From: Cladocopium goreaui
Taxonomy: Eukaryota; Sar; Dinophyceae; Suessiales; Symbiodiniaceae
DNA length: 64,000 nucleotides
Assembly: GCA_947184155.2 (NCBI GenBank)
Contig: CAMXCT020002024.1
Location: 603,620-667,619 of the forward strand
Direction of reading: 5' to 3'
Below, in pieces: positions 14,597 to 46,443 of this stretch; position 1 is the first letter of the stretch, and the number at the start of each line of letters is the position of its first letter. The position numbers and the translations under genes were made by a program. The notes beneath the pieces were generated by a model. It was given only the letters and a program-made list of their open reading frames with translations. It did not search any database and was not told the DNA's origin.

Positions 14597-14638
14597 TTCT
14601 CGAGGTTTCTGTGGGGGCTGTCCCTGAGATCTCGAGAA
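14597..14638 (+). promoter_or_regulatory. Conserved-loop hairpin (class 1)
   Basis: Outer arms TTCTCGAGGTTTC and GAGATCTCGAGAA enclose the 16-nt module TGTGGGGGCTGTCCCT. It is the most 5' member seen and no gene follows directly. Confidence 0.75.
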
Positions 14639-16112
14639 TTGCATTGTGACAATGTCAGTGTTTGTTTACGATGCAGTGGATCTATGTAAGTACAGCACGA
14701 AAAAATATATGTAATGTTTTCATGGAAACGCATGAGCAGTGGACAAAAAATACTATTCGGGCCGATCCTGACATGCCGCCATTTTTAAGTCGGGACCTTA
14801 TATGCAAATGAATAACATGTGGTTTGATGATTTGATGTGTTCATTGTAAGCTTCACTGTTGACACGTTCAGCCTTCAGTTTGCAGGACTCTGCGACAGTG
14901 GTTCTTTGCCATGTCAAACTCATGCGTGGCATTCTCAGTTCTTTTGTGGACATGTCCATGATGATTGTTTTGTGCACAGAGTGAACATTCTTATTCCCAT
15001 ATGTACGCTGAATGTTCGTGAAACAAGTGATGATCGGACCGCATGGTTTTTGACAATGAAAATGATCTGATGCTGGTTTCGCAGTGCGGTTGATGTATTT
15101 ATATATAGCATGTGTATTGTTTGCATGTTTGCCATTCTTTGATAGACGTTGTTTGGGAAGCAGCAGCTGAGTTTTGAGCTTGCAGGTCGTTCTCCAGAGG
15201 ATGGTGTCTTCTTATCGCAAGCTCAGGAGTTGCGATCCCAGTCTCGAGCTTCACAGAGTATGTTTTGCGTTGGTCCATGCTAATTCACTGTTTCACGTTC
15301 AGACCATGTTGACCTCTTTGCTCTATAGATGTGAATTGATCATTCCTTGTCTTAGATGTGAGCAAATGGACAAGACAAGAGTCACGCATGGGGAAACAAA
15401 ATACCATGCAGCATGAGCAAATAGTGTAGGCATGCTTGACAAGACACCCCAACGGTTCTGGCATTTCTCGAGATTTTTTGAGATTTCTGAACGTGGTTCG
15501 ATCCTTACTTACAAATTGCATGTGCGTCTTTCGTTGCCATGTCTGTTGTTAATGTTTTTTGTCACAGTTTGTCTTTTGAAGGACTTGGCATTCTGCAGAG
15601 TCTTCTATGCTGCTGAGGGGATTTGAATGTGCGTGATGCTCGCTTACCTTGAACTCATGAAGATGACGGATGTAGTTTATAGCATCATGGTACCGGCTTT
15701 TGCTTGTTTTTGTTGGCAAACTGTGTGGGAAATCGTCTATTCAAATGAACAACATGTGGTTTTAGTTGGGAATTCACGGTACCAGATTTCTTTGAAATGT
15801 GTTGCTTTGACGTGTTCATTGCAAGCTTCACTGTTCAGTTTGCAGGTCTCGGCGACAATCGTGCCCATGTCCAGTGTCAAACTTAGCAGTTGTGCTTCGA
15901 GTTTCGAAGTGCGAGTGCGTAGCCAAGTGTCAAACTCATGAATTGTTTTCAGTTTCGAAGTCCATGATGATGCAACACGGAACAAGCATAGTGCACCTCT
16001 TTACTTCTTTACCTCTTTTCTGGGCTCAGACGTGAACGGAAAGACAAGATGCATTGTGCACGGAGGAAACAAGTGACGGTTGGCAAACAGTTATCTTGAA
16101 CATTTCTTGGAC

Positions 16113-16154
16113 TTCTCGAGGTTTCTGTAGGGGCTGTCCGTGAGATCTCGAGAA
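16113..16154 (+). promoter_or_regulatory. Conserved-loop hairpin (class 1), leader of RepHel gene
   Basis: Arms TTCTCGAGGTTTC / GAGATCTCGAGAA make 13 continuous pairs including two G-U. The apical module is TGTAGGGGCTGTCCGT. It lies 172 nt before the ATG at 16327 and is followed by the shared leader text (GATGCAGTGGATCTATGTGA...). Confidence 0.85.
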
Positions 16155-16326
16155 TTGCATTGTGACAATGTCAGTGTTTGTTTACGATGCAGTGGATCTA
16201 TGTGATGTATAGCACGAAAAAATATATGTAATGTTTTCATTGAAATGCATGAGCAGTGGACAAAAAATACTACGGGAATCATTGTACCGTACAATTTTGT
16301 GGTCGCTGTTTCATTTGCTGAAGGGA

Positions 16327-16581
16327 ATGTCTGTGCGAATGGAGCATGCGACCGCGTCATCCTCGTCGTCCGATGGCGTGGAAGTTCGGTTGCAGGAGCT
16401 GCGTAGCAGTGCTGTGACCAGGGGTCGTGAATGGCTCCAGGATGCCCTGGCAAACATTTCAGTCATGGAGCTTCGCAAAATGGCGCATGCTCGAAATGTT
16501 GGCCGTGGACCGGACAACAAGTGGCTTGCGGTTGGAGAGGTGCGCGCTCGATTGCTGGATGTCTTGGCACCACGCATGCAG
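16327..16581 (+). CDS. Exon 1: SAP-like module with start codon
   Basis: 85 codons starting MSVRMEHATA; an ATG at 16339 is an alternative start. After a serine-rich leader comes the first copy of a ~72-residue helical module: LQELRSSAV, GREWLQDAL, MELRKMAHARNV, then KWLAVGEVRARLLDVL. The ELR...GK.WL..AELR..L pattern resembles SAP-type DNA-binding helices. That is pattern similarity, not a proven family match. The donor after CGCATGCAG leaves phase 0. Confidence 0.6.
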
Positions 16582-19500
16582 GTCCGGTGGGGCAGAATAG
16601 GATTGTGACGAAAGTTGCGTGTTTGTCACATGGTGCAATGTTGTGACCGAATTTGCATGTGTGTCAGACATGGCATCATGTTTGTGACATGCCAAGGATC
16701 GACAAACAAATATCGTCAACATTTGTTGCATCTCTTGAGGTCTCTGTAGGGGCTGTCCGTGAGATCTTGAGAATTGCACATGCCAACGTTCGTTTGTGAT
16801 GTAGTGGATCTATGTGGTATTATTTCATTGATATGCATGAGCAGCGGGAAAAAATTGTAGAATGATGGCGGTTTTGTGGTGGCAGTGTGTCGGATGCTGC
16901 AGGTGGAAGAGGCATCGGCTGCGAAATTGGAAGAACTTCGCCTTGGGGCTGTTTCACAGGGCAGGGAGTGGCTCAGTCGTTCTTTGGACGAAATGCGAAA
17001 AGAGGAGCTTCGAGTCCTGGCTACTGCGGGTGGTGTGGAGACACGATCCGGCAAGGCTTGGCTGCCTGTAGCAGAGCTGCGCAACTCGTTGATGAAAGTC
17101 TTGGAACCCTCCACGGAGGTTGGGTTCAACCAAAACATGTGTTGTGACATGAGTTGTTTTTGTGACCGAATTTGAATCTTTGTCACATGGTGCGATGTTG
17201 TAGAATGATGGTGGTTTTGTGGTGGCAGTGTGTCGGATGCCGCAGGTGGAAGAGGCATCGGCTGCCAAATTGGAAGAACTTCGCCTTGGGGCTGTTTCAC
17301 AGGGCAAGGATTGGCTGAGGCGTTCTTTGTCGGAAATGTCAGCTCGTCCGCTTCGAGTTCTGGCTGCTGCGGGTGGTGTGCAGACACATTCCAACCGGAA
17401 TTGGCTGCCTGTAGCAGAGCTGCGCAACTCGTTGATGAAAGTCTTGGAACCCTCCACGGAGGTTGGGTTCAACCAAAAAATGTGTTGTGACATGAGTTGT
17501 TTTTGTGACCGAATTCGCATGTTTGTGAGACATGGCATCATGTTTGTGCAATACCAGGGATCGACAAACAAATATCTTCAACATTTGTTGCATCTCTTTA
17601 GGTCTCTGTAGGGGCTGTCCGTGAGATCTTGAGAATTGCATAGTGATCATGCTAATTTTCGTTTGTGATGTAGTGGATCTATGTGTTATGTTTTCATTGA
17701 TATGCATGAGCAGCGGGAAAAATTTGTAGGGTGATGGTTGTTTTGTGGTGGCGGTGTGTTCCATGCTGTAGGTGGAAGAAGCATCGGCTGCCAAATTGGA
17801 AGAACTTCACCTTGGAGCTGTTTCAGAGGGTGAGGAGTGGCTCAGTCGTGCTTTGTACGGAATAGGAAGAGACGAGCTTCGAGTCCTGGCTACTGCGGCT
17901 GGTGTGGAGACACGATCGGGCAACGCTTGGCTGCCTGTAGCAGAGCTGCGTAATTCGTTGAAGAAAGTCTTGGCGACTTCCATGGAGGTTGGGTGTAATT
18001 AAAAAAACGACATCTTGAAGTTTCTGTGGGAGCTGTTTGTGACATCTCGAGAATTGAATTGTAGACTGTCGGCATTGCAAAAACGTCAAGTGCGGCTGTT
18101 TTTTTTATATATTTTTTTTAGCAGGAGCCGTGTCACGATGATACCCTTGCATCTGGTGCAAGTGTCTTGTGGGGCTGGCTGAAACGATGTTTGGAAAGTC
18201 CTTCGGCGCCTGATACTACATTGCTTCGAGATGCTGTTCCAGAACAAAAAGATCGCATGCGTATTTTAGCGGTTTTGGCCGACAAGACCATGGGTCAGGT
18301 GGAGGGATTGCATCTTTCGCTTGCTTCTTTGGATGCTCGTGTGGTGGATGCGACGTTGCCGCTTCTTGCTACTTTCGATGAAGTGCAGCAATCGTGGCCC
18401 AGCAAAGCTGTCACGGATTCTGTTGATTTATTAGATTTACCAGGTTACTTCGCCTCCATTGGCATGGAGCATTTGCTGCGGCATCAGGTCGTGGCATTGT
18501 TGTCCTGTGTTTTGCTGAGTGTATCGGAAGAAAGACGACTTCAATGGTGTCGTTTGGTGGGGTTCACCATCGACGCGGACATGTTGGAAGTGGCGAGCCG
18601 TTTGTGGGATGTCCACACACTTACAGCTGCCTGTGAATGGGACAGTTCTGGTGGTTATGAGGATCGTGACAATGTGGTGGAGGTGAGTGGTTGTCGAAAC
18701 TATTGTATGGCCTGCGTTAGTTTTTTTTGTCGTGTCTTGCCGGTTCGCGGTTGTTTGGTCTTTGTGTTGCTTGCAGGTGGTCCTTGGCATCCTGTGGGGC
18801 ACGAAAGCGTTGGTGGTGGATGATGAGGGCGAGGTGCGCCGGCGTCGAGGTAAGCTGGATGCTGCAGACGCGACGTACCTGCGATGCCTGATGCGGAGAT
18901 ATGGTTGGGAAAGATTTGACCAGGACGTGGAGGTGTGCTATTGGTCCGAATGTTTTCCATCTGCTCGCTATGGGAACAAGAAGTGTTTACAGTTTGCTTG
19001 GCTTTTGCTGACGCAGTTACTTCATCCTCGCCAGACGCCTGCATTGCAAGCTATGCGCTCACGTCACGATCCAGTGACGGTCGCAGAACTCCGTGATTCC
19101 AGGACGAGTGCGTGTCGTTGTTGTGTGTTTTGTGAAGTTTTCTTACCTTTGTCACCTTTGTGGGTATTTGCATGAGAAAATGAATTATCATGTGTTATAG
19201 ACGGCATCATGATGCCGAGCTGTTTTGTCCCATTTATGGGGAAATGTTCTTAATAAAATGACATGACATATGTCATAGATGGCATCATGTTTTTGAAATA
19301 CCAAGGAGCGACAAACAAATATCTTCAACATTTGTTGCATCTCTTGAGGTCTCTGTAGGGGCTGTCCGTGAGATCTCCAGAATTGCTCATGTAAAGCATA
19401 ATGGTACCGAGCTTTTTTTGTTTGCGCGATGAATGAGATAACGTATGTTATTTATACATCATGCGCGTGATCATGGTAGCCAATATATCTCGAGATCATC

Positions 19501-22500
19501 AGAGATATCTTCTCGAGGTTTCTGTAGGGGCTGTCCGTGAGATCTCGAGGAATTGCATACTGATTATGACATCGTGTGTACAGGAGCGGCGTGTCTCCGG
19601 TTGTCGTTCAATTGGAACTGGATATACGACAATGGCAGGAAGTGCAGCAGTGCTTGCGGTTGCCGACTTCAGATGAAGACGGTGTGCTGTTCAAGCGGGT
19701 GTCGGAGTATTTGGAGAAGGAGAAGAAGGTGCGCTGTCGTTCCATGAAAGCTGCATTCCCTGGCGATGTGGACAACATCAAGGAGTTGAAGTTGGATTGT
19801 TTGGAAGCTTCGGATGATGCAGAGAATGGTATCAAATGGAGATCCGACACGGAACGGAACTTGATGCAGTCGATTCCTGGGTGGACTGAAGGAACTCTTT
19901 GCAAGGCCGCTTTTGTGCCATTGAGTGCCATCCTTTTCGGCGCTGGCACTTCTGTTGTGGAATGTGTTCCGGAGGTGGATGTGGAAGGGGATGGTAATGC
20001 AGTTGTTCCTGACAGCACTGGCTCTTCCTGTGTGGAAGTTGCTGAGGAGGCAGATGTGGAGATGGATGTTGCTGCGGGCATTGCTATGGAGGCCTTGCCA
20101 GAGAATTTGCAAGTTGCCAAGAAAGCATTTGCTGTGTTGGAAAATGTGAATATGAAGTTTGAGATCAAGCTGCGTGAAGTTGCGCAGATGTTGGACTGCA
20201 GTCCAGCTATCACTGCTATTGGTGAAGCGCTGTCTGGCCTTGTGTTATGGTCTTATGATGATGATGATGTTCAGAATCCGCTGGAGCGTTACCAGTGCAG
20301 ACTGTGCAATTTTGGAACTGGCGGACAGAAAGAGTTTTTGGAACATTTAGTGGAGAAACACAGTGGAGGTGCCGATGCCAGCCGTGTGCTCATCGAGTAT
20401 CGTAAGAAGGTCATTGGACTATTGACACACCTGGGCCCCACAGTTTCTTGTCTGCGCTGACCTTTTGTGGGATCGGGGTACTGAGCTTTTTGTAGCTATT
20501 TGTGTGGAATTTGTATCATAAACGGAGATAATAGTTTTAATTCACGGCGTCGTGGTACTGAGTTTTTTGCGTTTTGTATTTCTGTTAGCACGATCGGAGT
20601 AGGGTAGTGTAACATGTTTGATGCGAGATATCATGGTAGTGAAATTTGCTGATGATGTTTTGATGACGTGATGCATCAGGTCACCAGCTTTGCTTCGCAA
20701 CGTCGCCTCATGGAGAATGCTGATGAAAGGCTTCGACAGCCCGAGCAAGGAGGTCGCTTTGAAACTGCATGCGTGGTGTGTGCTCGCAGGTTTTGGCGGG
20801 AGCAGCTGAAGATGTTAATCTTATTCCAAGATCCGGCTGGCAGCACCGAGTTGGAGAACGGTGCGGTGGATGTGATTCCGTGTGGTCAACAGGAACGCTT
20901 GTGTCGAATTCTTGGAGTTGAAAGATACAGTCGAAGATGGCCGAATATCCCTTTGGAGGCTCTGCATGCTTCGGCTGTTGAACATCCATACTGCAAGGGG
21001 GAGCATTTGCTCTTACACAAGCGTCGGATGCCGGTGGACTTGAAGGACCCTTACCACTGACTGCACGGGTTTGTTGCTTTCATTGCGGGATCACGGTATA
21101 CCAACTTGTTTGTAGCTAATTTTCTGTTCACGGCATCGGATTACTCGACTTTGTTTGGGAGACTGCACGGGTTTGTTGCTTTCATTGAGGGATCACGGTA
21201 TACCAACTTGTTTGTAGCTAATTTTCTGTTCACGGCATCGGATTACTCGACTTTGTTTGGGTGAAGTTCTAGTAGTATGTTCGGATGTCACTGCAATTGC
21301 AGGATCCTTGCCTGGTGTGCAGTGACTGCAAGGGCTCGTTGATGTCATCTAGTCTGACGTTGCCTCGGCACAGCTTGGCCAATGACCTTTGGATGGGCGA
21401 GCAACTGTCCGCATTGCGTGGCCTGGCCTCGGCCACGAAGCGACTTTTGCCGATGACACGGGCGTGCATGCAGGTTGTGGTATTGCAGCCCGGGCATTTG
21501 TCGCGTGAGGAACGTCAGCATGGCTTTGTAGGGAATTCGATTTTTCTCCCGCAAGCAAAGCCGTCTTCAGTGCTGACCACGCTCCCTCCAAAAGATGTTG
21601 ATATGCAAGATGCAGTTTTGTTTGTTTTGGTTGGAAGCCAGAAGGATGCAGTCAAGGGCTCTTCTTTGTTGCGTGCCCCGAGAGATGAGTACACTGCCGC
21701 TGTTGAATGTTTGAGGAAAACGAATCCTTTCTATGCGGAGGTGGAACTGGGAGATGGCAGTGATGATCTTTTGGAGGGCTGTGTCCTGGAAACTGCGGAG
21801 GATTCTGCATTGGCGCAGGAGTTGCTGCAGCGAGGTCCTGCAGACGCACAGGGACAAGACGCGTCGGATGATGAGAAGATGGACGATGCGAGTGAAGAAA
21901 AGCGTGAAGGCCTAGATGCACCAGGCAGGGTTCTGAATTGAATTTGGTTTTATTGATTGCTTCATGGTAGGGACTGTCCGAATGAAGCGATCGAAAACGA
22001 TGTTAATATCGAGTTTTGCTTTGTAACGTCTGCCTTTCGGAACCATTTTGTTTTGTGTGGCAGAAAGTAAATATGGAAAACTCGCGCACACATTGCAGGT
22101 GCAGGTGATTGCTTCATGGTAGGGACTGTCCGAATGAAGCAGCGTGAAGGCCTAGATGCACCAGGCAGGGTTCGGAAGTGAATTTGGTTGTATTCATTGC
22201 TTCATGCTAGGGACTGTCCGAATGAAGCGATCGAAAACGATGTTAATATCGAGTTTTGCTTTGTAACGTCTGCGTTTCGGAACCATTTTGTTTTGTGTGT
22301 GTGAAAGTAAATATGGAAAACTCACTCACGCAAACATTGCAGGTCATTTGATGTCTTCCATTGTTGGCTTGAACGATGGTGCGGATGAACAGAACAAGTG
22401 GGTGCGTGTGTTGAAGGATGTGGAGGAGGTCTGTGTGAGACAGGGTGGGCGGCGAAGGAGCGATGCTGCCGATGTGCTTCGCAACCGCATCAACAATGAA

Positions 22501-24250
22501 ATGCCGGCCCCGGATGCATCTGTTCCTGGTGAACTTTTGGGTCGTGAAGGAGCCCAAGAGAGGCGAACACTTCAAAAAATTCGGAGAATTCAGAAGATTG
22601 CCCGTGGCACGGCTGAAAATGAGCGCAATGTGGAATCAGCTATGTTCCAAGTCAAACCTTCCAAGTTGGTTGTTCCGACCAGAGACGAACCGCTGTCGAT
22701 GTTTGATCCGGCCACCTGGGGCATGTCGTTTCCGGATTTGTTTCCATGGGGTGATGGCTTGCCTTTTTTGAAGCGTGAAGCCAACATGGATGCAACAGAA
22801 GTGTTTCGATATTTGTTGCTTCGGGAAGAACTGCATTACAGTGAGGGTGATGCCTTGTTGCCAAGATGGTCGCTTTCAGTGCTTTGGATTTGGTTTATTC
22901 AATTGTTGCTGAGTTTTCTGTTTCCCCAGGATGGTTTGGTGGTTGTGTTTTGGTGGTTTCAGTTTTTGAGTTTGGTCGCCTTTGTTCCAAGTATGCGGGC
23001 AGGAGACGTTGCTTCCAGTGATGTACGACGTGCAGCGTCGATTACAGTTGATGCGTGCGACGAAAGCGCATGTGATGCGTCGTGGCTTTGGCAAACATTG
23101 TCGTGTTATTTCTGAAGTCAACACGGACCAATTGCTCAAGGCAATGGCATTGCATGGAGACAATGCGGACCTCAGGGAGTTGCTGCGAGATCCGCAGGTG
23201 GATGTGGCCTTGAAGCGAGCATTGGGAGGAGTGCTTCAGGCAACTTCGAGCATCATTGGCATGGAAGGGCACCGCAGCCAGATCCGGTTGCGTGGACATG
23301 CGGCTGGGTGGCATTATGGTTCTGCGCATCTGTTCGTCACTCCCAACATCGCAGATATGCGCTCGTCCTTGCTACTTCAATTGCACCTGCAGAATGTCAA
23401 AGTGGAAGAGTGCAAAATTGATTTGGACTGGGAGGCGGAGATGCCCGAATTGCCCAGCGCAGCTGCTATGCGACGGATTGTCGCGAGCGATCCCGTCGCT
23501 CAAGCGCGTTGCTTTGCCTTGATGATGGATTTGTTCTGTGAGGAAGTGTTGGGCATTCTTCCACCTTTGACCAAGGGAAGTTTTCGGGTTGGCGTGGCAG
23601 CAACCTTCGAAGATGGCATTGCGAGTTCCCTGCAAGGAGGTGTTTTCGGTGATATTGTGGCGTTGAACGGCCCGTTGGAGACTCAGGGTCGTGGTTCTTT
23701 GCACCCCCACATGCTTATTATCTTGCTGGGACACGACCTGGGAGATCGCTTGCGGAAACTGATTCATCGGGTGCAGCATGGTGAGTTGGTCGTTGAGTTG
23801 CAGCGGTGGAGTCGTCGTGTTTTGGAGGCTGTGCAGCGTTTTCAGTATGATTCTCAATTGGCCTTGTCGGAGCAGTTGAGCAGTCCGACACAGCCACTGC
23901 CTCTGAATGAACGTCAGCGATCAGAATGTGGTCACCAGTATGAATCCGCGCCTTTGGTGCCTACGGAGCCGGATGGACACGAATTGGAAGCCTTGAAGTT
24001 GGGCGGATCCGTGGCTGGCAAGGTTTTGACATTGACCGGATGCTATGCTTCTTTGCGACCCAAGTATCTGCGACGCAGTGAACGTTCTGCGGGAGATGGT
24101 CTTGAGTGGAAGAAAAAATTCTGTGAGGATTACAGACGTTTGGTGATCCAGAATCATTTTCACAAATGCACGAAATCATGTTTCAAAAAGTTCCTCGCAA
24201 TGAGCTTGGCAAAGTTGTGGTGGTTGTTGTTGTTGTTGTTGTCGTTGTCG

Positions 24251-24293
<43 letters not shown>

Positions 24294-27200
24294 CGTGGTT
24301 GTTGTTTTGGTTGTGGTTGTGGTTGTGGGTGTGGTTGTTTGTTTTTGTCGTTATTTTTGAGTTACGTGCGGTTTCGGCTTGGTCATGGCTTTTGTTGTTC
24401 GTTTACATGTTGCACGGTTGCTGTTACGGTATCAGTTAGCGTAAAACATTTTTGTGTAGAATGGAAAAGAGACGTCTGGAGTGTACAACGTGCATAGTTG
24501 GCTGTCAACGTGAAGAAGTATGTATATGTAAACACGACATGTTGCTTTGGCTGAGGAAAGCCGTGAAAGGCAAACGTGGGTGTCGCTTTGGTTGCTTTCA
24601 CGTTGAAATGATTCTGGGCAAGGAGGACAAGCCGAAAGTGTTATGTCGGAAAGGTTGGCCTCGAGTTGCGAAAGCAGGCTTTTCTCGGTTGCAATATGAG
24701 ACAGTAGATTTGAAGGAGGTTGAAGAGTTCAAAAACGAAAACCCGCATGTGTTTCAAGCTCGGCGTGATCACCCTTTTGAAGGGATGTCGAACCCGGTGG
24801 CGCAAGCAGTGATGCGATGCAATGTGGATGTCAAGTACATTGGACGCAATTTTTCAGAAGCAGACCTTTTGAAGTTTTGTGATGGGAGCATAGACCAGGA
24901 GCCTGGAGTCGAAGTTCCTGCTTCTGCATCTTCTCTGTTGGAACTGTCCGGGAGTGGATTGCAGGAGATGGAACTTCAACGCCCGGCGCTTGGTTCGTCT
25001 TCGGATGCTATATCGGGTGCTGATGCCTCACATGCAGAGCAACCTGTGTCGACTGAGTTGGATGCTTCGGATCCGCCGCCGAAGAAGCAATGCATGGGTC
25101 GTGTTTTGGACACGGAGCATAAGAAGATGCAGACGATGAGAAAGGCGCTTGAGCGCATTCTGGTGGACCTTGCAAGAGATATGATGAATGTTGGTTTTTA
25201 CACTGGTGAGTATGCTGCAAAGAAGTTTGAAATTTCGCGGAGTATGTTACCTGAATTGTATGCAGGACTGTTTGCTTCGGGGCGGTCGAAACGGAAATTT
25301 TTGACGATATTTTTTCTTACCGACTTTGTTTTGCAGTATTTTGTGCAAATGTCCTTAGTAAAGTAATGTAACATATCTGATTTGGAACATCACGATACCG
25401 ACTCCTTTTTTGAGGATTTGTATGGGAATTCCTACAATGAAATGAGATGGTATAGATTATTTTTTGGTGTGTGCCTTAATTTGGTTCTCAGTAAACGGCA
25501 ACATTGAAGGAGTGCAGCGATTGGAAGAGGAGGAAAGGGAAAGGGCAAAGGAAGCTGCAGCGGCCTCCGAGCAGGAGCCCCTGGAGGGGGACAGGGACCC
25601 TACTATGACAGGGCAACAGAGGCGTGCATTGACGATTTTGAGAAGACTTGCCTTTGGAATGAATCGTTGTGTGGCCAAATCCAACGGTGAAATGGCGTAT
25701 CAGATGTTATTCGAGCAGGAGCAACTGGTGACGTATCGTGGCTACAACATGTTCTTCCGCTATGTGCCGTATGCAATCATGCGTTGCAGACATGAGGACA
25801 TGGAGGAGGTTTTGCAAGCTAGGCCGCATCTCAATGGCTCGCCCTTGGATGTGCTTCCTGACCCCGAAGGAGAGGCACCAGTGGTGGTGGATGAGTTTGC
25901 GGAGGTTGTTGATGAGGGAGGTGATGTGCCTAGAGTCCAGCAGGTGCATGTGAACTTCAACCAGAAAGACGATTACTTGCACAGGGGCTCTTCGGTTTTG
26001 TTGCAATGCATGTCTCTTTTGATGTATTCTCGCTTCGTTCGCAGAGTTTCGAGGAACAAAGCCGGCAAGGTGGATGGAGTGAAGTTTTTCGACTTTGATG
26101 AGCACTATGCCCACTTCAGTTCCTCCGTTCAGGATTGCTTGCGGTGGGTGGTTCTGTTTTTTTTTTCGTTCTTACTTTGTTTGGTGTCTTTAAGTTTGAT
26201 ATTTGGAAAGTGTTAACAAGTTCGGGTGAAGTTGTTTATTTCTGTGTTGAGCTGAAATTCGCAGGAAGTGAGAGCAGCAGATGACAGTGTTGTGGTGCCT
26301 TCAGATTTGCACCTTCCGAAGGATGCTGAGGGGCAGAAGTACGCAGCTCACATGTTGGGATTATCTTTTCCATTCCCAACGTGTTCTGGAGATTGCAGTT
26401 TGTCACATCGATGCTTTGCTTGCCACACCATGGAAGAAGATGCAAAGCAAGGCGTTCTTTTTGCTCGTTTTACGCTGCATTGGAAGCACTGGAAAAGTTA
26501 CATGTCAATGAGGAGGTGTTTGGCGGAGGAAAGAGTTTTGGCCGGTTTGTCTGCTCCGGTCATCCGGGATGTTGCATCAGTGCGTTCCTATGTTGCTGGC
26601 ATCGGTGACACCAGCAGTGCTTTTAGATGTTTGGAGAAGCTGTTCGGTGGAGCAGAAGGAGCGGATTGTCGCTATCATGACATGCTGCGCATCTGTGAGC
26701 GCGTTGCCTGGTTCGCAGACTTGTCCGTTCCGTTTCATTACACTCAGTTGACATCGCAAGAGTTCTTGGCCTATATTCAGACATCGTGGTTGGAGCGTTT
26801 CCAGCAGCACTGTGCTGCACGTCGTCTCAGCAGCAGTCGTCGGACAGCTGAGCGTTATGCTTTGATGACTGCTTTGGACAAGGAGGAGGACCTGGAAGAT
26901 GATTCGGCACCGCCGGTTATAGAAGGACACGAGGTCGAGGATGATCTGCTATTGCAAGAAGAGTTGGACAACTTGGAACGTGCGCAGTGGCCGGTGGATG
27001 GAGAAGCATTGCACGAAGCTATGTTTCGGGAAGAGGATTGGATGAAGGTGTTGGGCAATCGAAAGCCATCTGTATTGCAGGACATGGTATCGAGCTTTTT
27101 GGGCGATGTTCGTGGGAATTTCCCTGATAAAAGGAGATGATATATGTTTTTCGCAGCATCATGGTACTAAGCTGTTGTTGTGTAACGTTGTTGATGATTC

Positions 27201-29853: not shown

Positions 29854-30065
29854 TGTTTCTCGCGGTAGGGACTGTCCGAGCGGGGAGCAGGCGTTGCGTC
29901 ATGAAATTAGAGTTAGAAGATGTAAAACATGACCCAACGTATGTTTCTCGCGGTAGGGACTGTCCGAGCGGGGAGCAGGCATTGTATCATGAAATTAGAG
30001 TTAGAAGATGTAAAACATGACCTGACGTATGTTTCTCACAGTAGGGACTGTCCGAGCGGGGAGCA
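29854..30065 (+). promoter_or_regulatory. Three conserved-loop hairpins (class 3) after RepHel stop
   Basis: Copies at 29854-29889, 29942-29977 and 30030-30065 in an ~88-bp tandem unit. Arms TGTTTCTCGC / GCGGGGAGCA pair over 10 positions with three U-G wobbles, possible only in + strand RNA. Loop GGTAGGGACTGTCCGA. The third copy has one mismatch and AGTAGGGACTGTCCGA. The first lies 116 nt after the stop codon. Confidence 0.85.
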
Positions 30066-31236: not shown

Positions 31237-31237
31237 T

Positions 31238-32773: not shown

Positions 32774-32785
32774 TGTGGAGGGACA

Positions 32786-32909
32786 ACGTGCTGTAGGGTC
32801 TGTCCGTGCATGTATCCTTCTGCTTCTCGGGCCTCTGTGAGCCCATTTGTTTTTTTTGCCATGCAGTGATGTGGAGAGACAACGTGCTGTAGGATTTGTC
32901 CGTGCATGT
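32786..32909 (+). promoter_or_regulatory. Two conserved-loop hairpins (class 4) after stop
   Basis: Copies at 32786-32813 and 32882-32909. Stem ACGTGC/GCATGT with one G-U pair. Loops TGTAGGGTCTGTCCGT and TGTAGGATTTGTCCGT. They lie in a ~96-bp tandem unit that starts next to the TGA at 32771. Confidence 0.8.
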
Positions 32910-33135
32910 ATCCCTCTGCTTCACGGGTCTCTGTGAGGCCATTTGTTTTTCACCATCTGTTAACAACATGTGGAACTGTTGTTGGCGATGTGGACAATCC
33001 TGGACGTCATGCGAGAGAAACACAGAGTTCTGCGAATTGATGCGCGGGACAGTATATAGGTTGTTTATCATCTGATGCGATTGGGAAAGTGACATCTTCC
33101 ATTAGGCTTGATCAACAGGTGTCACACTTGAAGTT

Positions 33136-33770
33136 TTACTTACAAATTGCATGTGCGTCTTTCGTTGCCATGTCTGTTGTTAATGTTTTTTGTCACAGTT
33201 TGTCTTTTGAAGGACTTGGCATTCTGCAGAGTCTTCTATGCTGCTGAGGGGATTTGAATGTGCGTGATGCTCGCTTACCTTGAACTCATGAAGATGACGG
33301 ATGTAGTTTATAGCATCATGGTACCGGCTTTTGCTTGTTTTTGTTGGCAAGCTGTGTGGGAAATCGTCTATTCAAATGAACAACATGTGGTTTTAGTTGG
33401 GAATTCACGGTACCAGATTTCTTTGAAATGTGTTGCTTTGACGTGTTCATTGCAAGCTTCACTGTTCAGTTTGCAGGTCTCGGCGACAATCGTGCCCATG
33501 TCCAGTGTCAAACTTAGCAGTTGTGCTTCGAGTTTCGAAGTGCGAGTGCGTAGCCAAGTGTCAAACTCATGAATGGTTTTCAGTTTCGAAGTCCATGATG
33601 ATGCAACACGGAACAAGCATAGTGCACCTCTTTACTTCTTTACCTCTTTTCTGGGCTCAGACGTGAACGGAAAGACAAGATGCATTGTGCACGGAGGAAA
33701 CAAGTGACGGTTGGCAAACAGTTATCTTTAACATTTCTTGCGCTTCTCGAAGTTTCTGTAGGGGCTGTCC
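33136..33770 (+). repeat. Near-identical copy of 15.50-16.13 kb
   Basis: Continues the paralogy of the 31.24-31.81 kb block after the inserted segment. It includes the dispersed motif (AGCATCATGGTACCGGCTTT near 33312). Confidence 0.9.
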
Positions 33771-33785
33771 GTGAGATCTCGAGAA
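33744..33785 (+). promoter_or_regulatory. Conserved-loop hairpin (class 1)
   Basis: TTCTCGAAGTTTC / GAGATCTCGAGAA with one A-C mismatch. Loop TGTAGGGGCTGTCCGT. Confidence 0.75.
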
Positions 33786-34049: not shown

Positions 34050-34091
34050 TTCTCGAGGTTTCTGTAGGGGCTGTCCGTGAGATCTCGGGAA
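34050..34091 (+). promoter_or_regulatory. Conserved-loop hairpin (class 1), leader of J-domain gene
   Basis: TTCTCGAGGTTTC / GAGATCTCGGGAA (one extra U-G). Loop TGTAGGGGCTGTCCGT. It lies 161 nt before the ATG at 34253, with the same following leader text as at 16155. Confidence 0.85.
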
Positions 34092-34252: not shown

Positions 34253-35095
34253 ATGGCCGCGTGGAGACCGCCGGAGGATGAGGAAGTGGCCTGGGGGTTG
34301 GAAGTTCTGGGCTGCAAGCGATCCCATATTGTGGACATGTCGGAGGATGAGTTCCGATACATTTTGAAGCCGCGGCGGAAGCAAGTTGCATTGGCACTGC
34401 ATCCGGACAAGCAAGACGATGAGAGAAGGATGATGGCGGAGGCTCAAATGAAACGCTGGAATGTGGCCTGGGAGAGACTGATGCGTAGTGTTCCGCGACA
34501 GTTCAAAGCAGCTGGTGTAGACGTCGTCCCGGCGCGAACTCAAGCTGCGCTGAATGCTCATCCTGGGATGTGGGAAGAGCCCTGGCGTGTTCCTCCTTTG
34601 TTGGTTCGGCAGTGGAGACGCAGAGGTGCAGGGCATCAGGAGTCTGAATCAGGAGATGGCGTTCCAAGTGGTTCGCAACAGCCTGGCGCGCAGTCTGCAC
34701 AGGCAGGAACGGGTACCGGTGCTACTAGTTCGGATGGTGGTATGCCCAGTGCTTCAGCGGGCAAGGATCCAGAAGGTGATGCTGGCACTTCGCAGTCGGA
34801 TTCGACCAAGGCTTCAGAGCCTTGCACTGGTACGCCTCACTGTGTTGATTTTGATACTAGGCATGGTGCCGTTCCTGCTCAAAAATTGCTCGAATACAAG
34901 TTTTTGTATTCCGCACATGGAAAATGCGTTCAGTGCATGGATTACTACGCGAGGCAGCCCGGTCTTGATGTGACCTGTAAATCTTGCAACATGAATGCTC
35001 GCCAATGGGCTGCCAGTTCCACGGGTAGCAGAAAGCGTACCACGGTACATATCCCAGATGATGTGGAACGATGGCTGCAACGCCACAACTTGTGA
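34253..35095 (+). CDS. J-domain protein with C-terminal Cys4 tail
   Basis: 280 codons, single exon. Residues 1-75 form a J-domain-like helical hairpin with the diagnostic His-Pro-Asp in ALALHPDKQDDERR. J domains bind Hsp70 and stimulate its ATPase. The middle (about 125-190) is a low-complexity Ser/Gly/Gln-rich linker. The tail (about 200-280) has HCVDFD, EYKFLYSAHGKCVQCMDYYA, CKSCNMNARQWA and IPDDVERWLQRHNL: two Cys-X2-Cys pairs that could bind zinc. The same tail ends the next gene. The stop TGA 35093-35095 is followed after 41 nt by a hairpin. Confidence 0.8.
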   Translation: MAAWRPPEDEEVAWGLEVLGCKRSHIVDMSEDEFRYILKPRRKQVALALHPDKQDDERRMMAEAQMKRWNVAWERLMRSVPRQFKAAGVDVVPARTQAALNAHPGMWEEPWRVPPLLVRQWRRRGAGHQESESGDGVPSGSQQPGAQSAQAGTGTGATSSDGGMPSASAGKDPEGDAGTSQSDSTKASEPCTGTPHCVDFDTRHGAVPAQKLLEYKFLYSAHGKCVQCMDYYARQPGLDVTCKSCNMNARQWAASSTGSRKRTTVHIPDDVERWLQRHNL

Positions 35096-35135
35096 TAATG
35101 TGTATATAGTTTGCTTCGATGGCCAACATTCCACT

Positions 35136-35275
35136 CGCATCTAAAGAGACTGTTCGTGATGCGTGGTGGGTAACATAAGTGCCATTTTGAAAAAGTTCAA
35201 CTTGTGAGAATGTGTGCATAGTTTGTTTTGAGAGCAAACATTCCACCCGCATTTAAAGAGACTGTTCGTGATGCG
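35136..35275 (+). promoter_or_regulatory. Two conserved-loop hairpins (class 5) after stop
   Basis: Copies at 35136-35163 (CGCATC/GATGCG) and 35248-35275 (CGCATT/GATGCG, U-G pair). Both have loop TAAAGAGACTGTTCGT. In the second, CCACC and GGTGG extend the stem across a bulge. Inside the loop the inner pair is A-U where most other classes have G-C. Confidence 0.85.
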
Positions 35276-35778
35276 TGGTGGTTAGCGGAAGTGCCGTTTT
35301 GAAAAGTACACTCGCGGTTGACCGTCATCCATGCAGTGATGTCATGCATTGAGATGCACTGTTATGATTTGTTCTGAGATTTCACCAGCATCAGGTCATT
35401 TTCATTGCACAACATGTGGTTTGATTCGGCGAGTCACGGTAACCGATTTTTTTGAAGTGTGTTGATTTGATGTGTTCATCGCCAGCTTCACTGTTCAGCA
35501 GTTTGCAGGTCTCTGCGACAATGGTGTCCATGCCCAGTGTCAAACTTAGCAATTGTGCTCTGAGTTTTAAAGTCGGAGAACGAATTCTTTGCATTGGATT
35601 GTGTTCTCAGCTTCTCTTGAACAAGACGAAACAAGCATAGTTTGTCTACGATGATGCAAGACGAAACAAGCTGCTCTTTGCCTCCTTACCACTTTCCTGG
35701 GCTCAGACGTGAACGGAGAAACAAGATGCATGGCAGGAAACACGGTTGGCAAACAGATATCTTGAACATTTCTTGCTC

Positions 35779-35820
35779 TTCTCGAGGTTTCTGTAGGGGC
35801 TGTCCGTGAGATCCCGAGAA
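35779..35820 (+). promoter_or_regulatory. Conserved-loop hairpin (class 1), leader of next gene
   Basis: TTCTCGAGGTTTC / GAGATCCCGAGAA. Loop TGTAGGGGCTGTCCGT. It lies 275 nt before the ATG at 36096. Confidence 0.8.
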
Positions 35821-36947: not shown

Positions 36948-36959
36948 AAGCGTTTCACA

Positions 36960-37036
36960 GTGACACTGTAGGAACTGTCCGTGTGTCACCTGAAGCCCAT
37001 TGAAGGTGACATTGTAGGAACCGTCCGTGCGTCACC
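36960..37036 (+). promoter_or_regulatory. Two conserved-loop hairpins (class 6) after stop
   Basis: 36960-36989: GTGACAC / GTGTCAC, seven perfect pairs, loop TGTAGGAACTGTCCGT. 37005-37036: GGTGACAT / GCGTCACC, loop TGTAGGAACCGTCCGT. The first starts 12 nt after the TAG. Confidence 0.88.
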
Positions 37037-37520: not shown

Positions 37521-37560
37521 TCTCGAGATTTCTGAAGGGACTGTCCGTGAGATCTCGAGA
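37521..37560 (+). promoter_or_regulatory. Conserved-loop hairpin (class 1), leader of kinase-like gene
   Basis: TCTCGAGATTTC / GAGATCTCGAGA: 12 continuous pairs. A G-U of other class 1 copies is here A-U. Loop TGAAGGGACTGTCCGT. It lies 82 nt before the ATG at 37643. Confidence 0.88.
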
Positions 37561-40150: not shown

Positions 40151-40190
40151 TGCCATGTGTTTGTTGCCGTGTGCTTTTGCGTTCAGTACT

Positions 40191-40218
40191 CATTGCGGAA
40201 GGGACTGTCCGAGCAATG
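40191..40218 (+). promoter_or_regulatory. Conserved-loop hairpin (class 7) after stop
   Basis: CATTGC/GCAATG, extendable by U-G and C-G pairs. Loop GGAAGGGACTGTCCGA. It is part of a ~240-bp block (40126-40362) repeated at 41087-41320. Confidence 0.85.
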
Positions 40219-40362
40219 GGGAAATAACGCAGTTTCACTGGCATCGTCTGCACGATCGCGCTTCGCGGCTCTTGCTTCGAAAAAGACAGAGTTTAGTGGT
40301 TCATCTCTGTGCGAGGTGCATTGTCGTCAATCAAAATTTGATGTGAATGCATGTGTTTGAGA

Positions 40363-41086: not shown

Positions 41087-41320
41087 TGATGCGCGGGATG
41101 CGCTGTAGTGCCACGTGTTTGTTGCCGTGTGCTTTTGCGTTCAGTACTCATTGCGGAAGGGACTGTCCGAGCAATGGGGAAATAACGCAGTTCCACTGGC
41201 ATCGTCTGCACGATCGCGCTTCGCGGCTCTTGCTTCGAAAAAGACAGAGTTTAGTGGTTCATCTCTGTGCGAGGTGCATTGTCCTCAATCAAAATTTGAT
41301 GTGAATGCATGTGTTTGACG
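41087..41320 (+). repeat. Second copy of hairpin block with gene-tail relic
   Basis: Nearly identical to 40126-40362. It carries the last codons and stop of the 40.15-kb gene, the hairpin at 41149-41176 (CATTGC, GGAAGGGACTGTCCGA, GCAATG) and ~150 bp after it. Confidence 0.92.
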
Positions 41321-41512
41321 GCGGAAGATGATGGCTCCGACATGGTTTTGGTTACGGAAAGAGTCTTCAAATTGCAATCGGAGGAACAGGTGAAAGCGAT
41401 CATGGCCGAGCGTGCCGCCATCGCAGCTGTGCAGATGATTTCTTCGAAAAAAAGACACGCCGTCGACTTGGTTGAGGAAACGCCCTTGAAAGTGAAGGGT
41501 GCCAAGTGGTAG
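41309..41512 (+). CDS. Short frame before class 8 hairpin
   Basis: 67 codons, MCLTAEDDGSDMVLVTERVF to VKGAKW, stop TAG. It contains a charged helix (EEQVKAIMAERAAIAAVQMI). The first codons lie in the duplicated block, so it may be a last exon rather than a separate gene. A perfect hairpin starts 34 nt after the stop. Confidence 0.45.
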   Translation: MCLTAEDDGSDMVLVTERVFKLQSEEQVKAIMAERAAIAAVQMISSKKRHAVDLVEETPLKVKGAKW

Positions 41513-41546
41513 TTTTTTTTTGGCCAATGCAATATCATTGCTGACA

Positions 41547-41576
41547 GTGATGCTACAGGGACTGTCCGTGCATCAC
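41547..41576 (+). promoter_or_regulatory. Conserved-loop hairpin (class 8) after stop
   Basis: GTGATGC / GCATCAC, seven perfect pairs. Loop TACAGGGACTGTCCGT. Confidence 0.88.
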
Positions 41577-41691
41577 GCAGCGTGATTCTTTGCACCACGG
41601 CTTTTTTTTATTTCAACCAGCGTGGTATTTCTGGCTAGGAAAGATCCATGCTGTGGAGGGTCGCAGAAAGTGTGTTGCGTCCTGAAATGTC

Positions 41692-41862
41692 TGTTAAACA
41701 CAGAATTTTGACGGGCTTGATGCTTCAGGGACTGTCCGTGCATCGAGCGAAAAAGCAATGAAAATGGTGCTATCCGTGCCATCATGATAAGCATTCGTTT
41801 GCGTGCTTTTGTTATTCTTTGTTTACAGTTTCACCGTACAGAGAAAGTCGTGCAACTGAGGT
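41692..41862 (+). repeat. Hairpin block a (class 8), before F-box-like gene
   Basis: Contains the hairpin 41715-41748 (GCTTGATGC / GCATCGAGC, one U-G, loop TTCAGGGACTGTCCGT). Its text recurs at about 42830-42997 on the other side of the gene at 42.16-42.82 kb. Confidence 0.88.
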
Positions 41863-42820: not shown

Positions 42821-42829
42821 TCTGTTAAA

Positions 42830-42997
42830 CGCGGAATTTTTGACGGGCTCGATGCTACAGGGACTGTCCGTGCATCGAGCGAAATGCAATGAAAAGGATG
42901 TCTTCCGTGCCATCATGATAAGCATTCGTTTGCGCGCTTTTGTTATCCTTTGTTTACAGTTTCACCGTACAGAGAAAGTCGTGCAACTAAGGAAGGT
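42830..42997 (+). repeat. Hairpin block b (class 8), after F-box-like gene
   Basis: Contains the hairpin 42847-42880: GCTCGATGC / GCATCGAGC, nine perfect pairs, loop TACAGGGACTGTCCGT. Compared with block a the U-G pair is C-G. Confidence 0.9.
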
Positions 42998-43440: not shown

Positions 43441-44172
43441 ATGACCACTAGCGCTCGTGAGTGGAGAGCGGCGCGCGAAGAAGATATCAGGAAGGCTTAC
43501 GCCGACAAAGAATGTTGGACTGACCTTGACCGCATTACCTGTTGGCACCCTTACTGTTTCGGGTCCATAGAGGAGTGGCCATTGGACGCTGCCGTGATCT
43601 GCAAACCTACGGATCGAGCGTCGGTGCTGCTTGGCAGCATCAAAGCGGCCTGCAGCTTGGAAGACATTTGCCAGGCTCTGTCGGTGAAGGTCACCGTGGT
43701 GGTGACCATGTGCGCAAATGAAATGAAGATTCGAGGCGCCCCAAAGGATTGGGCGCAGTATTTCCAGCAAGAAAATGTCTATCACGTCAAGTGTCATTTG
43801 GAAGACACGACATTGAAGCCGCCGCACCGTTGGGAGGAAAGAATCCCTGACTTGGTAGCTTCTTGTTTGGAACAGTGGAAAATTGTTTGTGGCCAACTCT
43901 GGAAACAGTCCATGCTGGCAGTGACCAGGGGCGAATCCATGCACGTGCTCTTTCATTGCTTTGGAGGCATCAATCGAAGCGCTGGGGCTTTATGTGCTTG
44001 GCTCGTCGTGGGTTACAACTACCCTGCAGAGGATGCCGTCCAGTTGCTGCTTAAGAAAAGACCTTCCTTGCGCCCTTGGCACAATCGCCCCTATGTCTTG
44101 GAGGCTTTGTGGCAGCTGGAAGGTTTGCGGGCCGAGTGGCACATGGAACTGAGCGCGGCGTGCACAAATTGA
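43441..44172 (+). CDS. Dual-specificity-phosphatase-like protein
   Basis: 243 codons from MTTSAREWRA, stop TGA. The Cys-X5-Arg signature loop is present as VLFHCFGGINRSAGALCAWL: catalytic Cys, Gly-Gly, Arg, then Ser. It is preceded by a strand and followed by a helix, as in DSP/PTP phosphatases. An upstream VVVTMCANEMKI strand and WAQYFQQENVYH segment match the usual position of the general-acid region; a candidate Asp lies in CHLEDTTL. The substrate is unknown. The hairpin starts 11 nt after the stop, and truncated copies of the gene's 3' end with hairpins recur at 45.65 and 46.06 kb. Confidence 0.75.
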   Translation: MTTSAREWRAAREEDIRKAYADKECWTDLDRITCWHPYCFGSIEEWPLDAAVICKPTDRASVLLGSIKAACSLEDICQALSVKVTVVVTMCANEMKIRGAPKDWAQYFQQENVYHVKCHLEDTTLKPPHRWEERIPDLVASCLEQWKIVCGQLWKQSMLAVTRGESMHVLFHCFGGINRSAGALCAWLVVGYNYPAEDAVQLLLKKRPSLRPWHNRPYVLEALWQLEGLRAEWHMELSAACTN

Positions 44173-44548
44173 TTTGCACCACTGTTCGCCTGGAGAAACT
44201 GTTCGTGGCGAACGTGGTAGATCAGTAGCCAACTGTTGTTTGTCTGTAACAATTGTTCGATCCTGTAGGGACATCGAAGAAATGGAGTGCAACAGGTGTT
44301 ATCTATGCCATCATGCTATCGAACTTGTTTTTGTGGAATCATTCACTGCGTACACAAACGAATTTGCACCACTGTTCGCCTGAGGAAACTGTTCGTGGCG
44401 AACGTGTGACATGAGTAGCCAAGTGTTGCTTCTCTGTAAGTATTGTTCGATCCTGTAGTGACATCCGAGAAATGCAGTGAGCGAAAACTCGTCCAGGCCA
44501 TCATGATATCGAACTTGTTTTGTGCCCGGAATCATTCACTGCGTTCAC
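44164..44548 (+). repeat. Tandem ~190-bp hairpin unit, two copies (class 9)
   Basis: Units 44164-44352 and 44353-44548. Hairpins GTTCGCC / GGCGAAC at 44184-44213 (loop TGGAGAAACTGTTCGT) and 44374-44403 (loop TGAGGAAACTGTTCGT). Each is followed by GATCCTGTAG and a CCATCATG(C/A)TATCGAACTTG form of the dispersed motif. Confidence 0.9.
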
Positions 44549-45013
44549 TTGTTGTTTTTTGGATACCAATTTTTAAACATTTCCAATCCAAAGCTGTGTT
44601 TGCGCACCTTTGTTTGGAAGTGAGGTCATACACGGCATCATGGTACCGGGCTTATTTGCTATGTCAAACTCCGGAGTCGTGTTTTCACGATGCGTTTCGC
44701 TGAATAGATGTGACGTTTGTAGGTCAAGCTGTGGTGGAAATATCGAAACCTTGCGCTTTCAACTAATACTTCTGTAGCCTGCATTAACAGCATGTCGCGC
44801 CTGGCAGCCGATTGCTTTACAGCTGCGGGGAGATTGCAATATACTTGTATTACATTCTGTTTTCAAATGAAGAAGCAAGAGATTGTACCCATTATGGGTC
44901 TTGGTGTTGAAGGATACCCGGCGGCAGCGCCCACATCGTTGGACATGACAGCAGTTAACAACAAACAAAATTTTGGTGCACAAACGTGTCGCATAAAGTA
45001 TTTGGGGATTTAA
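44549..45013 (+). other. Spacer
   Basis: Contains one dispersed motif (GGCATCATGGTACCGGGCTT near 44635). No gene recognised. Confidence 0.5.
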
Positions 45014-45580
45014 ATGTGGTCTGCCATGGCAGCGAATGCGGAGGGAATCCGTGCAAGGGCGGATGTCTTTGATGAACAAATTCTACGACACGTTCTTTCA
45101 TTTGTGCCTGGGAGCTCTGAATTGGCTCCAAAATATTCTTTGCAACCAGAAACCGGACACTATCTGGTAAAAGCTGGTTGGCCAGTTGTTTTGAAGAAAA
45201 TGTGTCATTGGAAGGAGGCAGACACCACCATCTGTATTTGCTGCGGTGCCAACCAAGAACCCGGCGATCCAAACGAGTCAGACGATAGCTGGACATCTCA
45301 GCAAATCTCTGCTGGCTGGGCAAAGATCATGACCGTGACAATACCACACTTTCGTCATCATCATCTGAAATATATCAAAAAAACAGTCAGAAGCATAGAA
45401 CATGTTTGGAGGACAATGGCAGCCGAGAGATGTTACATCTGCGGGCACTGCAACGACTGCGTTGTGAATCTCGAGTATGAGCATCCTGCTGACTGGCTGG
45501 AAGATCTTTCTGCGTTCACAGAGATGCTGGAACTTAGGTCGTGTCCGTGGAGGTGCCCAGATAAAGATCGACCGCAGTAG
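45014..45580 (+). CDS. Cys-rich protein with F-box-like start
   Basis: 188 codons (MWSAMAANAEGIRA); an ATG at 45026 is an alternative start. The N-terminal VFDEQILRHVLSFVPGSSEL resembles the first helix of an F-box. Two Cys clusters follow: TICICCGANQEPG, and RCYICGHCNDCVVNLEYEH, a Cys-X2-Cys-X2-Cys-X2-Cys run with a late His that could bind zinc. A further SCPWRCPD lies at the end. Family unknown. Its stop is followed by a relic of the phosphatase 3' end and two hairpins. Confidence 0.6.
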   Translation: MWSAMAANAEGIRARADVFDEQILRHVLSFVPGSSELAPKYSLQPETGHYLVKAGWPVVLKKMCHWKEADTTICICCGANQEPGDPNESDDSWTSQQISAGWAKIMTVTIPHFRHHHLKYIKKTVRSIEHVWRTMAAERCYICGHCNDCVVNLEYEHPADWLEDLSAFTEMLELRSCPWRCPDKDRPQ

Positions 45581-45639
45581 CCGGATTGCTGCAGTAGTAA
45601 AAGCGGCAAACATGCCACATCTGCAGCATCATGGTACCG

Positions 45640-46050
45640 ACCTTTGCTTGGACGCAGCTTGTGGGAGCTGGAAGGCTTGCGTACCGAGTGGCACTGAGTG
45701 CAACTGGCGCAAATTAATCTGTAGCACTGTTCGTCTGGAGAGACTGTTCGTGACGAACATGCAAAACCAGTATGTTCGTCTGGAGAGACTGTTCGTGACG
45801 AACATGCAAAACCAGTAGCCAACTGTTGTTTGTCTGTAAAGTTTTTTTTCCATCCTGTAGGGACATCGGAGAAATGCAGTGAAACAGGTGTTATCCTTGC
45901 CATCATGCTATCGAACTTGCTATCATTCACAGCATTCTTGCACGGAGTTCTAGTTTCTTACGGAGCCTTTGTTTGTGTACTTTTGCATTTTGTAGCATTT
46001 CCATTGCGACTATGTTTGCCCACCTTTGTTTGCAACTAAGGTCATCCACG
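45640..46050 (+). repeat. Phosphatase 3'-end relic with two hairpins, copy 1
   Basis: 45650-45720 matches the last codons of the phosphatase gene (WELEGLRTEWH, then a stop). Hairpins follow at 45729-45758 and 45774-45803: GTTCGTC / GACGAAC, loop TGGAGAGACTGTTCGT. Relative to 44184, a C-G pair has become U-A. The block continues to about 46050. Confidence 0.88.
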
Positions 46051-46443
46051 GCATCAGGGAGCTGGAAGGCTTGCGTACCGAGTGGCACTGAGTGCAACTG
46101 GCGCAAATTAATCTGTAGCACTGTTCGTCTGGAGAGACTGTTCGTGACGAACATGCAAAACCAGTATGTTCGTCTGGAGAGACTGTTCGTGACGAACATG
46201 CAAAACCAGTAGCCAACTGTTGTTTGTCTGTAAAGTTTTTTTTCCATCCTGTAGGGACATCGGAGAAATGCAGTGAAACAGGTGTTATCCTTGCCATCAT
46301 GATATCGAACTTGCTATCATTCACAGCATTCTTGCACGGAGTTCTAGTTTCTTACGGAGCCTTTGTTTGTGTACTTTTGCATTTTGTAGCATTTTCATTG
46401 CGACTATGTTTGCCCACCTTTGTTTGCAACTAAGGTCATCCAC
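46051..46443 (+). repeat. Phosphatase 3'-end relic with two hairpins, copy 2
   Basis: Second near-identical copy of the previous block. Hairpins at 46123-46152 and 46168-46197. It is the last hairpin block; sequence character changes just after it. Confidence 0.9.

Follow-up and report, generated by a model that had tools for sequence, protein, structure and literature searches.

Introduction

Several RNA-binding proteins read stem-loops through a fixed apical module set on an interchangeable helix, as with the iron-responsive element (IRE), the Roquin decay element and the Smaug element, in which a conserved apical part on a free helix lets one reader serve many mRNAs. Mobile DNA offers related layouts: the 3′ stem-loops of paired long and short interspersed nuclear elements (LINE/SINE) place a conserved loop on a variable stem at the RNA 3′ end, and the integron attC site is a folded site present once per gene, in the same orientation, with its conserved parts in the stem. 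Here we analyse a 64,000 nucleotide (nt) stretch of the genome of the dinoflagellate Cladocopium goreaui (assembly GCA_947184155.2, contig CAMXCT020002024.1, positions 603,620 to 667,619 of the forward strand; hereafter the window, numbered from its first letter), in which 36 hairpins sharing one 16-nt module lie, all on the plus strand, between 14.6 and 46.2 kb. The region bearing them is a Helitron2-like transposon, and we propose, at a probability of about 0.68, that the hairpins are a cis-acting RNA element common to the mRNAs of this giant transposon and its relatives.

The family resembles each of these systems in part. Unlike the IRE, Roquin and Smaug elements, the hairpins have another apical sequence, match nothing in Rfam and are transposon-borne; unlike the LINE/SINE stem-loops, they belong to an element that is not a retroelement, no reverse transcriptase domain being recognised in the 20 open reading frames (ORFs) scanned with Pfam. 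In attC the stem holds the conserved parts, whereas here the apex does, and no junction was seen at a module. Helitron2/Helentron elements share with the transposon a Rep and a PIF1-type helicase, a 5′ hairpin, asymmetric inverted repeats of which the 3′ copy lies a little inside the terminus, and probably TT insertion, but the present element is 34.6 kb long with several further genes, has a 3′ CTAG as in Helitron1, and bears gene-wise hairpins, which the accessible portions of the Helitron2 literature do not mention (PMC5148889, PMC4067079). In Mimivirus, hairpins with free stems lie behind stop codons, and the portion of the source available describes the motif as not conserved in sequence (PMC4402537), in contrast to the 16-nt apical module described here. 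The location behind stops is here a tendency of the gene-specific hairpin types, not of the most numerous type, F1.

Results

A sequence-only reading of the window had claimed some 36 hairpins with a common 16-nt module, present on the plus strand alone and only from 14.6 to 46.2 kb, and this proved accurate. Searched with up to three mismatches and with the stem ignored, the module TGTAGGGACTGTCCGT has 33 matches in the window, all on the plus strand, against a chance mean of 0.31. When sites were selected on the 12 core letters, likewise with no stem criterion, all 23 plus-strand sites with at most one mismatch have at least five of six flush stem pairs, as do 10 of 12 sites with two mismatches; on the minus strand of the window, sites with 0–1 mismatch are lacking, and even when four core mismatches are allowed no site reaches five stem pairs. 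As a control we used viral contigs with 40 exact matches to 14 nt of the module, several of these matches lying in one shared context; they had been considered as relatives and set aside since they look like chance: by hand count, 2/40 have five of six pairs and 0/40 have six. A covariance model built from the gapless alignment of the 36 copies scores these at 29.1–43.5 bits, compared with a top score of 23.7 bits on the 40 control contigs. Its only additional sites in the window are two weak, degenerate ones at 18017 (16.0 bits, E 0.08) and 24928 (15.6 bits, E 0.1) and three at E 3.7–4.5. In line with the earlier remark that no described element of this layout was known, Rfam gives no match at the gathering threshold over the whole window and none at E up to 1 over 14400–46500. 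Viral contigs searched with helicase peptides and two 18–19-letter patterns yielded no relatives, and among the titles of the best 10 or 20 entries of long open-access literature lists none describes this hairpin element.

Without guidance, RNAalifold folds the 36 copies as ((((((((....(((....)))..)))))))). The lower stem is variable but nearly always paired; above it come a 4×2 internal loop (NNNA / GN), an apical helix of 3 bp and a tetraloop whose last letter is G. The earlier description, a conserved loop on a free but paired stem, thus stands as to the conserved module and the pairing, but the apex is this composite structure and not a plain loop. Module positions G5, G11 and T12 are invariant across the copies. 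All cells of the apical helix are paired (100%), including one G-C to A-U double change; an alternative apical register (G6-C14) pairs 87.4% of cells and was dropped. The closing mismatch N1/N16 varies jointly, being T.T in 28 copies, G.A in seven and A.A in one. In the lower stem all eight pairs are changed on both sides somewhere in the alignment, 95.6% of cells are paired against 64.8% after shuffling, and cells changed on both sides number 105 against 30.4. The covariation score is 0.886 against 0.261 in shuffles, and slid registers give at most 0.25 for this structure and at most 0.27 over the two structures tested. Two of five measures are weak: the number of pairs changed on both sides is matched by 105/500 shuffles and that of further pair types by 12/500. 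The covariation check proposed in the earlier reading therefore comes out in favour of a functional element.

We grouped the stems by our own judgement into ten types (F1–F10); single linkage on 6-nt arms merged the types into three groups (AGGG form of the module) or one (AACC form) and was not used. First copies of all ten types pair 6/6 with their own arms compared with a mean of 3.03 when arms are swapped between types, and 0/200000 permutations of the arms do as well. At least nine unrelated paired stem types had been claimed, and the number and the pairing are borne out; the types are not fully unlike, as 4/6 letters of the 5′ arm are common in 3/45 type pairs, so that some types may be related.

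Positions of the hairpins relative to genes were assessed against 18 segments whose codon usage scored as coding, the highest score on the minus strand serving as the threshold; several scored segment ends are intron ends and not true stops. Outside these segments lie 35 of the 36 hairpins. The sole overlap is the single F2 hairpin (16311–16342), at a segment start; its 3′ arm contains the in-frame ATG (16339) of an ORF ending at 16608, so that the hairpin (in 16307–16346) might mask a start codon. The covariance model has no match above 11 bits between the helicase exons. The gene-specific types F3–F10 lie mostly 12–150 nt behind stop codons, often in two or three tandem copies, and form 12 clusters. 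Seven of these start within 125 nt behind a scored end (background 0.103, P 6e-5) and six within 50 nt (background 0.043, P 5e-6); for all 25 clusters the counts are eight (P 0.003) and six (P 6e-4).

All copies were found by the covariance model, all lie on the plus strand, and distances are to scored stops unless stated otherwise. The three F3 hairpins (21958–21989, 22110–22141, 22198–22229) begin 15 nt behind the stop at 21941, and the three F4 hairpins (29856–29887, 29944–29975, 30032–30063) 114 nt behind the helicase stop at 29738. For the F5 pair (32784–32815, 32880–32911) the TGA ends at 32773 and the preceding gene is uncertain, being judged by eye and not scored as coding. F6 (35134–35165, 35246–35277) begins 41 nt behind the stop at 35095, and F7 (36959–36990, 37005–37036) 13 nt behind that at 36947. 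The F8 hairpins (40189–40220 and 41147–41178) follow ORF ends at 40150 and 41075, both ORFs being below the coding threshold (coding score 8.4 for the second). Two F9 hairpins (41546–41577 and 41716–41747) are 35 and 203 nt behind the stop at 41512, and a third (42848–42879) is 27 nt behind that at 42820. An F10 pair (44183–44214, 44373–44404) begins 12 nt behind the stop at 44172; a further F10 hairpin (45728–45759) begins 148 nt behind an ORF end at 45580, again below the coding threshold, and is followed by three more (45773–45804, 46122–46153, 46167–46198). The 12 F1 copies are at 14602–14633, 16118–16149, 16737–16768, 17599–17630, 19346–19377, 19515–19546, 30917–30948, 32139–32170, 33749–33780, 34055–34086, 35784–35815 and 37525–37556.

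In dinoflagellates (Amphidinium) the motif AAAAG/C marks poly(A) sites, and 3′ untranslated regions (UTRs) there have a mean length of 72 nt and a range of 42–143, according to the available part of one study (PMC2488372). Behind the gene-specific hairpins AAAA[GC] is enriched, occurring within 75 nt after 8/12 clusters (background 0.173, P 2e-4) and within 30 nt after five (P 0.002); counted by stem family the former figure is 6/8, because F8a/b and F9b/c are related pairs. None of the 13 F1/F2 hairpins is followed by the motif within 75 nt.

Searches of the same genome (1.166 Gb) with exact patterns and a single protein show that the hairpins are conserved in diverged elements. On contig 194, the stretch L063 holds relatives of three adjacent genes of the window, in unchanged order and at 32–34% protein identity, and at most of the syntenic places it has hairpins in which the module is changed to AACCRGARCTGTCYGA and the stems are its own. 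Behind the stop of its second gene modules follow at 29 and 135 nt, the first on a 14-bp stem; two hairpins precede its first gene and one its third. These other stems at syntenic places, and the failure of swapped arms to pair, argue against one recent repeat whose stems differ by chance, the outcome that would have undone the sequence-only reading. In a closer relative (L064, 68–80% identity to window genes) two stops are followed by modules, one of F7 type at 29 nt and the other of F6 type at 47 nt, and an F1-type hairpin lies ahead of a gene. For seven further relatives the prediction was fixed beforehand, and in five of them a hairpin was found by script within about 150 nt behind the stop. 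With the relatives added to the alignment another apical pair (G5-C14) also changes to A-U, 96.9% of cells are paired and the covariation score is 1.027 against 0.314.

Across the genome the AACC module AACCRGARCTGTCYGA occurs 396 times compared with four for its control, and the AGGG core 435 times, its reversed control giving 115. With at most one mismatch allowed, five module forms pick out 164 sites in the window and loci L041–L064; 160 of these are paired, and the four unpaired are one coding site in four element copies. Forty short regions (eight from contig 194) were sampled by module only among the first 100 of those 396 AACC matches, and a flush stem was found at 43/47 sites, 30 of them distinct. 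Even isolated AGGG sites (AGGGACTGTCCG), where chance matches had been expected, are paired in 9/16 cases: seven are of type F9, one is F3 and one (L120) has a stem type not met before. The family had been called domain-wide; it is confined to one domain within the window, but that domain is the transposon, and the hairpins recur in hundreds of other genome places. This genome-wide family, the location of gene-type hairpins just behind stops and the Helitron identity of the element go beyond what had been noted.

The transposon itself spans 12153–46751 on the plus strand, with ends common to copies elsewhere and differing host flanks. Its right end (46751) is common to copies on five other contigs and its left end (12153) to three of these (C748, C942, C123); the five copies are 98.6–99.9% identical to the window copy over the longest blocks. 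A T precedes TC at 4/4 left ends and follows CTAG at 6/6 right ends, window included, and judged from the flanks of inserted copies alone there is no evident target duplication. The 5′ end TCCCGAGAGCG (12153–12181), with the hairpin CGAAG/CTTCG, starts TC with a T just outside, and the 3′ end CGCTCTCGGG ... CTAG (46727–46751) is an inverted repeat of it 15 nt from the terminus, so that the inverted repeats (CCCGAGAGCG / CGCTCTCGGG) are asymmetric, the 3′ copy being set back 15 nt. The terminal hairpins have 5 bp at the 5′ end and, by eye, 3 bp at the 3′ end. Since the region is a transposon, the limits of the hairpin range are the limits of the element, and the single strand of the hairpins is that of its genes. 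A bacterial or organellar origin of the stretch was ruled out by spliced genes, dinoflagellate protein matches and the lack of any tRNA or Rfam match.

Within the element, all on the plus strand, a Rep part (22982–24439) matches Helitron_like_N (E 6.6e-14) and has the HUH-like sequence HPHMLI in the translation of 23003–24160. The PIF1-type helicase gene (25605–29738) has several exons; its own PIF1 match (E 3.8e-4) is below the Pfam cut-off, and several of its homologues carry PF05970. Named relatives of the helicase include records from Durusdinium trenchii and Symbiodinium microadriaticum and the eukprot record Skav, which we take to be Fugacium kawagutii; by these protein matches, too, a host among the Symbiodiniaceae is the most likely. 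A cargo gene at 34253–35095 has a weak DnaJ-like match at its start and a Cys-rich C-terminal part (Pfam and genome protein search). The protein of 34253–35092 has 94 genome matches, 20 of them (window included) at 97–100% identity over at least 252/280 residues; of the rest one is at 86% and one, partial, at 69%, and the others are fragments, the neighbouring paralogue or remote forms. Further cargo genes are one of DUF6570 type (21285–21938, E 4e-16) and one resembling a dual-specificity phosphatase (43441–44169, E 1e-7, just below the Pfam cut-off).

The 5′ part of the element (12187–14370) is made up of tandem arrays that differ between element copies: first come 30-nt units containing CAGATCTAGATCTTCAC, next GACGTTGGACGTCAAAAACTGAGG units and finally TGTGTGTAAAAGCG. 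About 216 nt of the window copy (30244–30459) are skipped in alignments of the C748, C418, C922 and C942 copies. A second recurrent motif, CATCATGGTACCGAGCTTTT, has nine matches with up to three mismatches (chance 0.01), all on the plus strand and within the element, from 19205 to 46465 (e.g. 19397, 42013, 44636 and 46446); by eye these are in introns and spacers, and the motif was seen again in L064. A long ORF (46367–49174), weakly matched by the superfamily 1 helicase domain AAA_19 (E 4e-4, below cut-off), starts within the 3′ end of the transposon and lies mostly outside it. Evenly spaced weak minus-strand matches drew attention to a tandem repeat of about 1080 nt at 57315–63801.

Discussion

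Covariation supports a functional RNA element, as the sequence-only reading had supposed, and the hairpins probably act as RNA. Their preferred location after the stop codon and ahead of the probable poly(A) site, their tandem copies and their deep maintenance together suggest a common 3′-UTR signal. Since pairing and module persist while the stem sequence drifts, we consider a single protein, able to recognise the apical module whatever helix carries it, the likely reader. The mRNAs of the element could thereby be marked jointly for 3′-end definition, stability, export or translation. The family with its fold and covariation, the element, the enrichment behind stops and before AAAAG/C and the conservation in diverged elements are observed; that the hairpins occur in mature RNA, are read by a protein and have a regulatory outcome is what we infer. 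A broader picture, a mobile-element RNA regulon, is tentative and on balance doubtful: giant Helitrons of dinoflagellates, as a whole superfamily, might tag their mRNAs with one hairpin code, through which a dedicated reader would handle these jointly, ending, protecting or translating them. This would be the transposon equivalent of the hairpin rule of giant viruses, at work inside the polycistronic, trans-spliced transcription of the host.

Strand asymmetry of imperfect pairs points at most weakly to plus-strand RNA. In the window G-U outnumbers A-C on the plus strand by 17:5 when each combination of family and position is counted once. Imperfect hairpins of other kinds in the region give 71:54 (one-sided P 0.055), and in the AACC sample the ratio is 29:7 (P 0.007, with a control not matched for place).

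A number of observations weigh against a 3′-UTR signal acting as RNA. Against a stricter control set (22:15) the G-U bias has P 0.13, and unrelated hairpins in the DNA after the element show a similar excess (51:14); nor does Pfam recognise an RNA-binding domain in the 20 ORFs scanned. F1 (TTCTCGAG) sits in spacers, with most of its copies more than 500 nt behind any scored stop, and given this location F1 hairpins must have another or additional role; two more F1 copies (15460, 31765) have kept the stem sequence and lost the 16-nt module. Five of the 12 gene-type clusters are more than 125 nt from any scored stop, namely the second of a pair at 41716, three behind ORF ends below threshold (40150, 41075 and 45580) and one behind the TGA at 32773 with its uncertain gene. 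The training set of the codon score overlaps 6/18 segments, and the AAAAG/C test was run after some cases had been seen by eye. Among the relatives, a scan behind the stop of the first L063 gene found no hairpin, 4/47 sites of the AACC sample are without a stem, and four of the seven predicted relatives are near-copies of L063. One of the seven (L069) has its hairpin by eye only, an extra base failing the strict register, and in another (L070) the first hairpin is truncated and the next is 201 nt away from the stop.

In the main rival explanation the same hairpins would instead work as single-stranded DNA, as sites for the HUH Rep or replication factors, as internal origins or terminators, or as cassette-exchange sites like integron attC. 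In its favour, rolling-circle origins typically have conserved loops on free stems, and a Helitron Rep is encoded by the element. The presence of one hairpin type for each gene is also reminiscent of a cassette array; G-T pairs form in DNA too, and the G-U bias is not specific. We nevertheless regard this as unlikely: the module is absent at both termini, the closest copies found by the model lying 2.4 kb and 0.55 kb inwards, and the location between stop codon and AAAAG/C is not predicted. Seven deletion or insertion junctions between copies, identified by eye, all lie at least 69 nt from any module (one, 15444, is 16 nt from a stem without its module), and the hairpins were accordingly rejected as recombination sites.

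Another explanation is a structural cleavage and polyadenylation signal of the kind known as the hairpin rule in Mimiviridae, where an RNase III-like enzyme would cut at the hairpin and poly(A) be added there. The position 3′ of stop codons and the freedom of the stems are the same, and AAAAG/C lies 5–38 nt behind the stem in 6/12 clusters. Cutting needs no tandem hairpins, however, and would leave F1 in the spacers unaccounted for; moreover the Mimivirus motif is, in the available part of the account, without nucleotide conservation (PMC4402537), whereas here the module is the conserved part, and we consider this explanation improbable. Uniform size, many copies and tandem duplications would also suit an origin from a small palindromic insertion, itself mobile, whose copies entered the transposon and left these remnants. 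There is very little to be said for this origin, as copies of a single insertion would have common stems, while here the arms are complementary within each type but not between types, and a relative at 32–34% identity still has hairpins at syntenic positions. The cis-acting RNA element remains the explanation we favour.

To our knowledge few cis elements are known in dinoflagellates, and a common hairpin tag on the genes of a transposon seems undescribed. These organisms are thought, in the part of one account available (PMC12787238), to regulate mostly post-transcriptionally, and the canonical poly(A) signal is absent from them according to the accessible part of the Amphidinium study (PMC2488372). 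Hundreds of hairpin copies with strong covariation and a preferred location behind stops offer a handle on dinoflagellate 3′-end formation and mRNA control. If the RNA reading is true, this would be a DNA transposon carrying its own common post-transcriptional signal.

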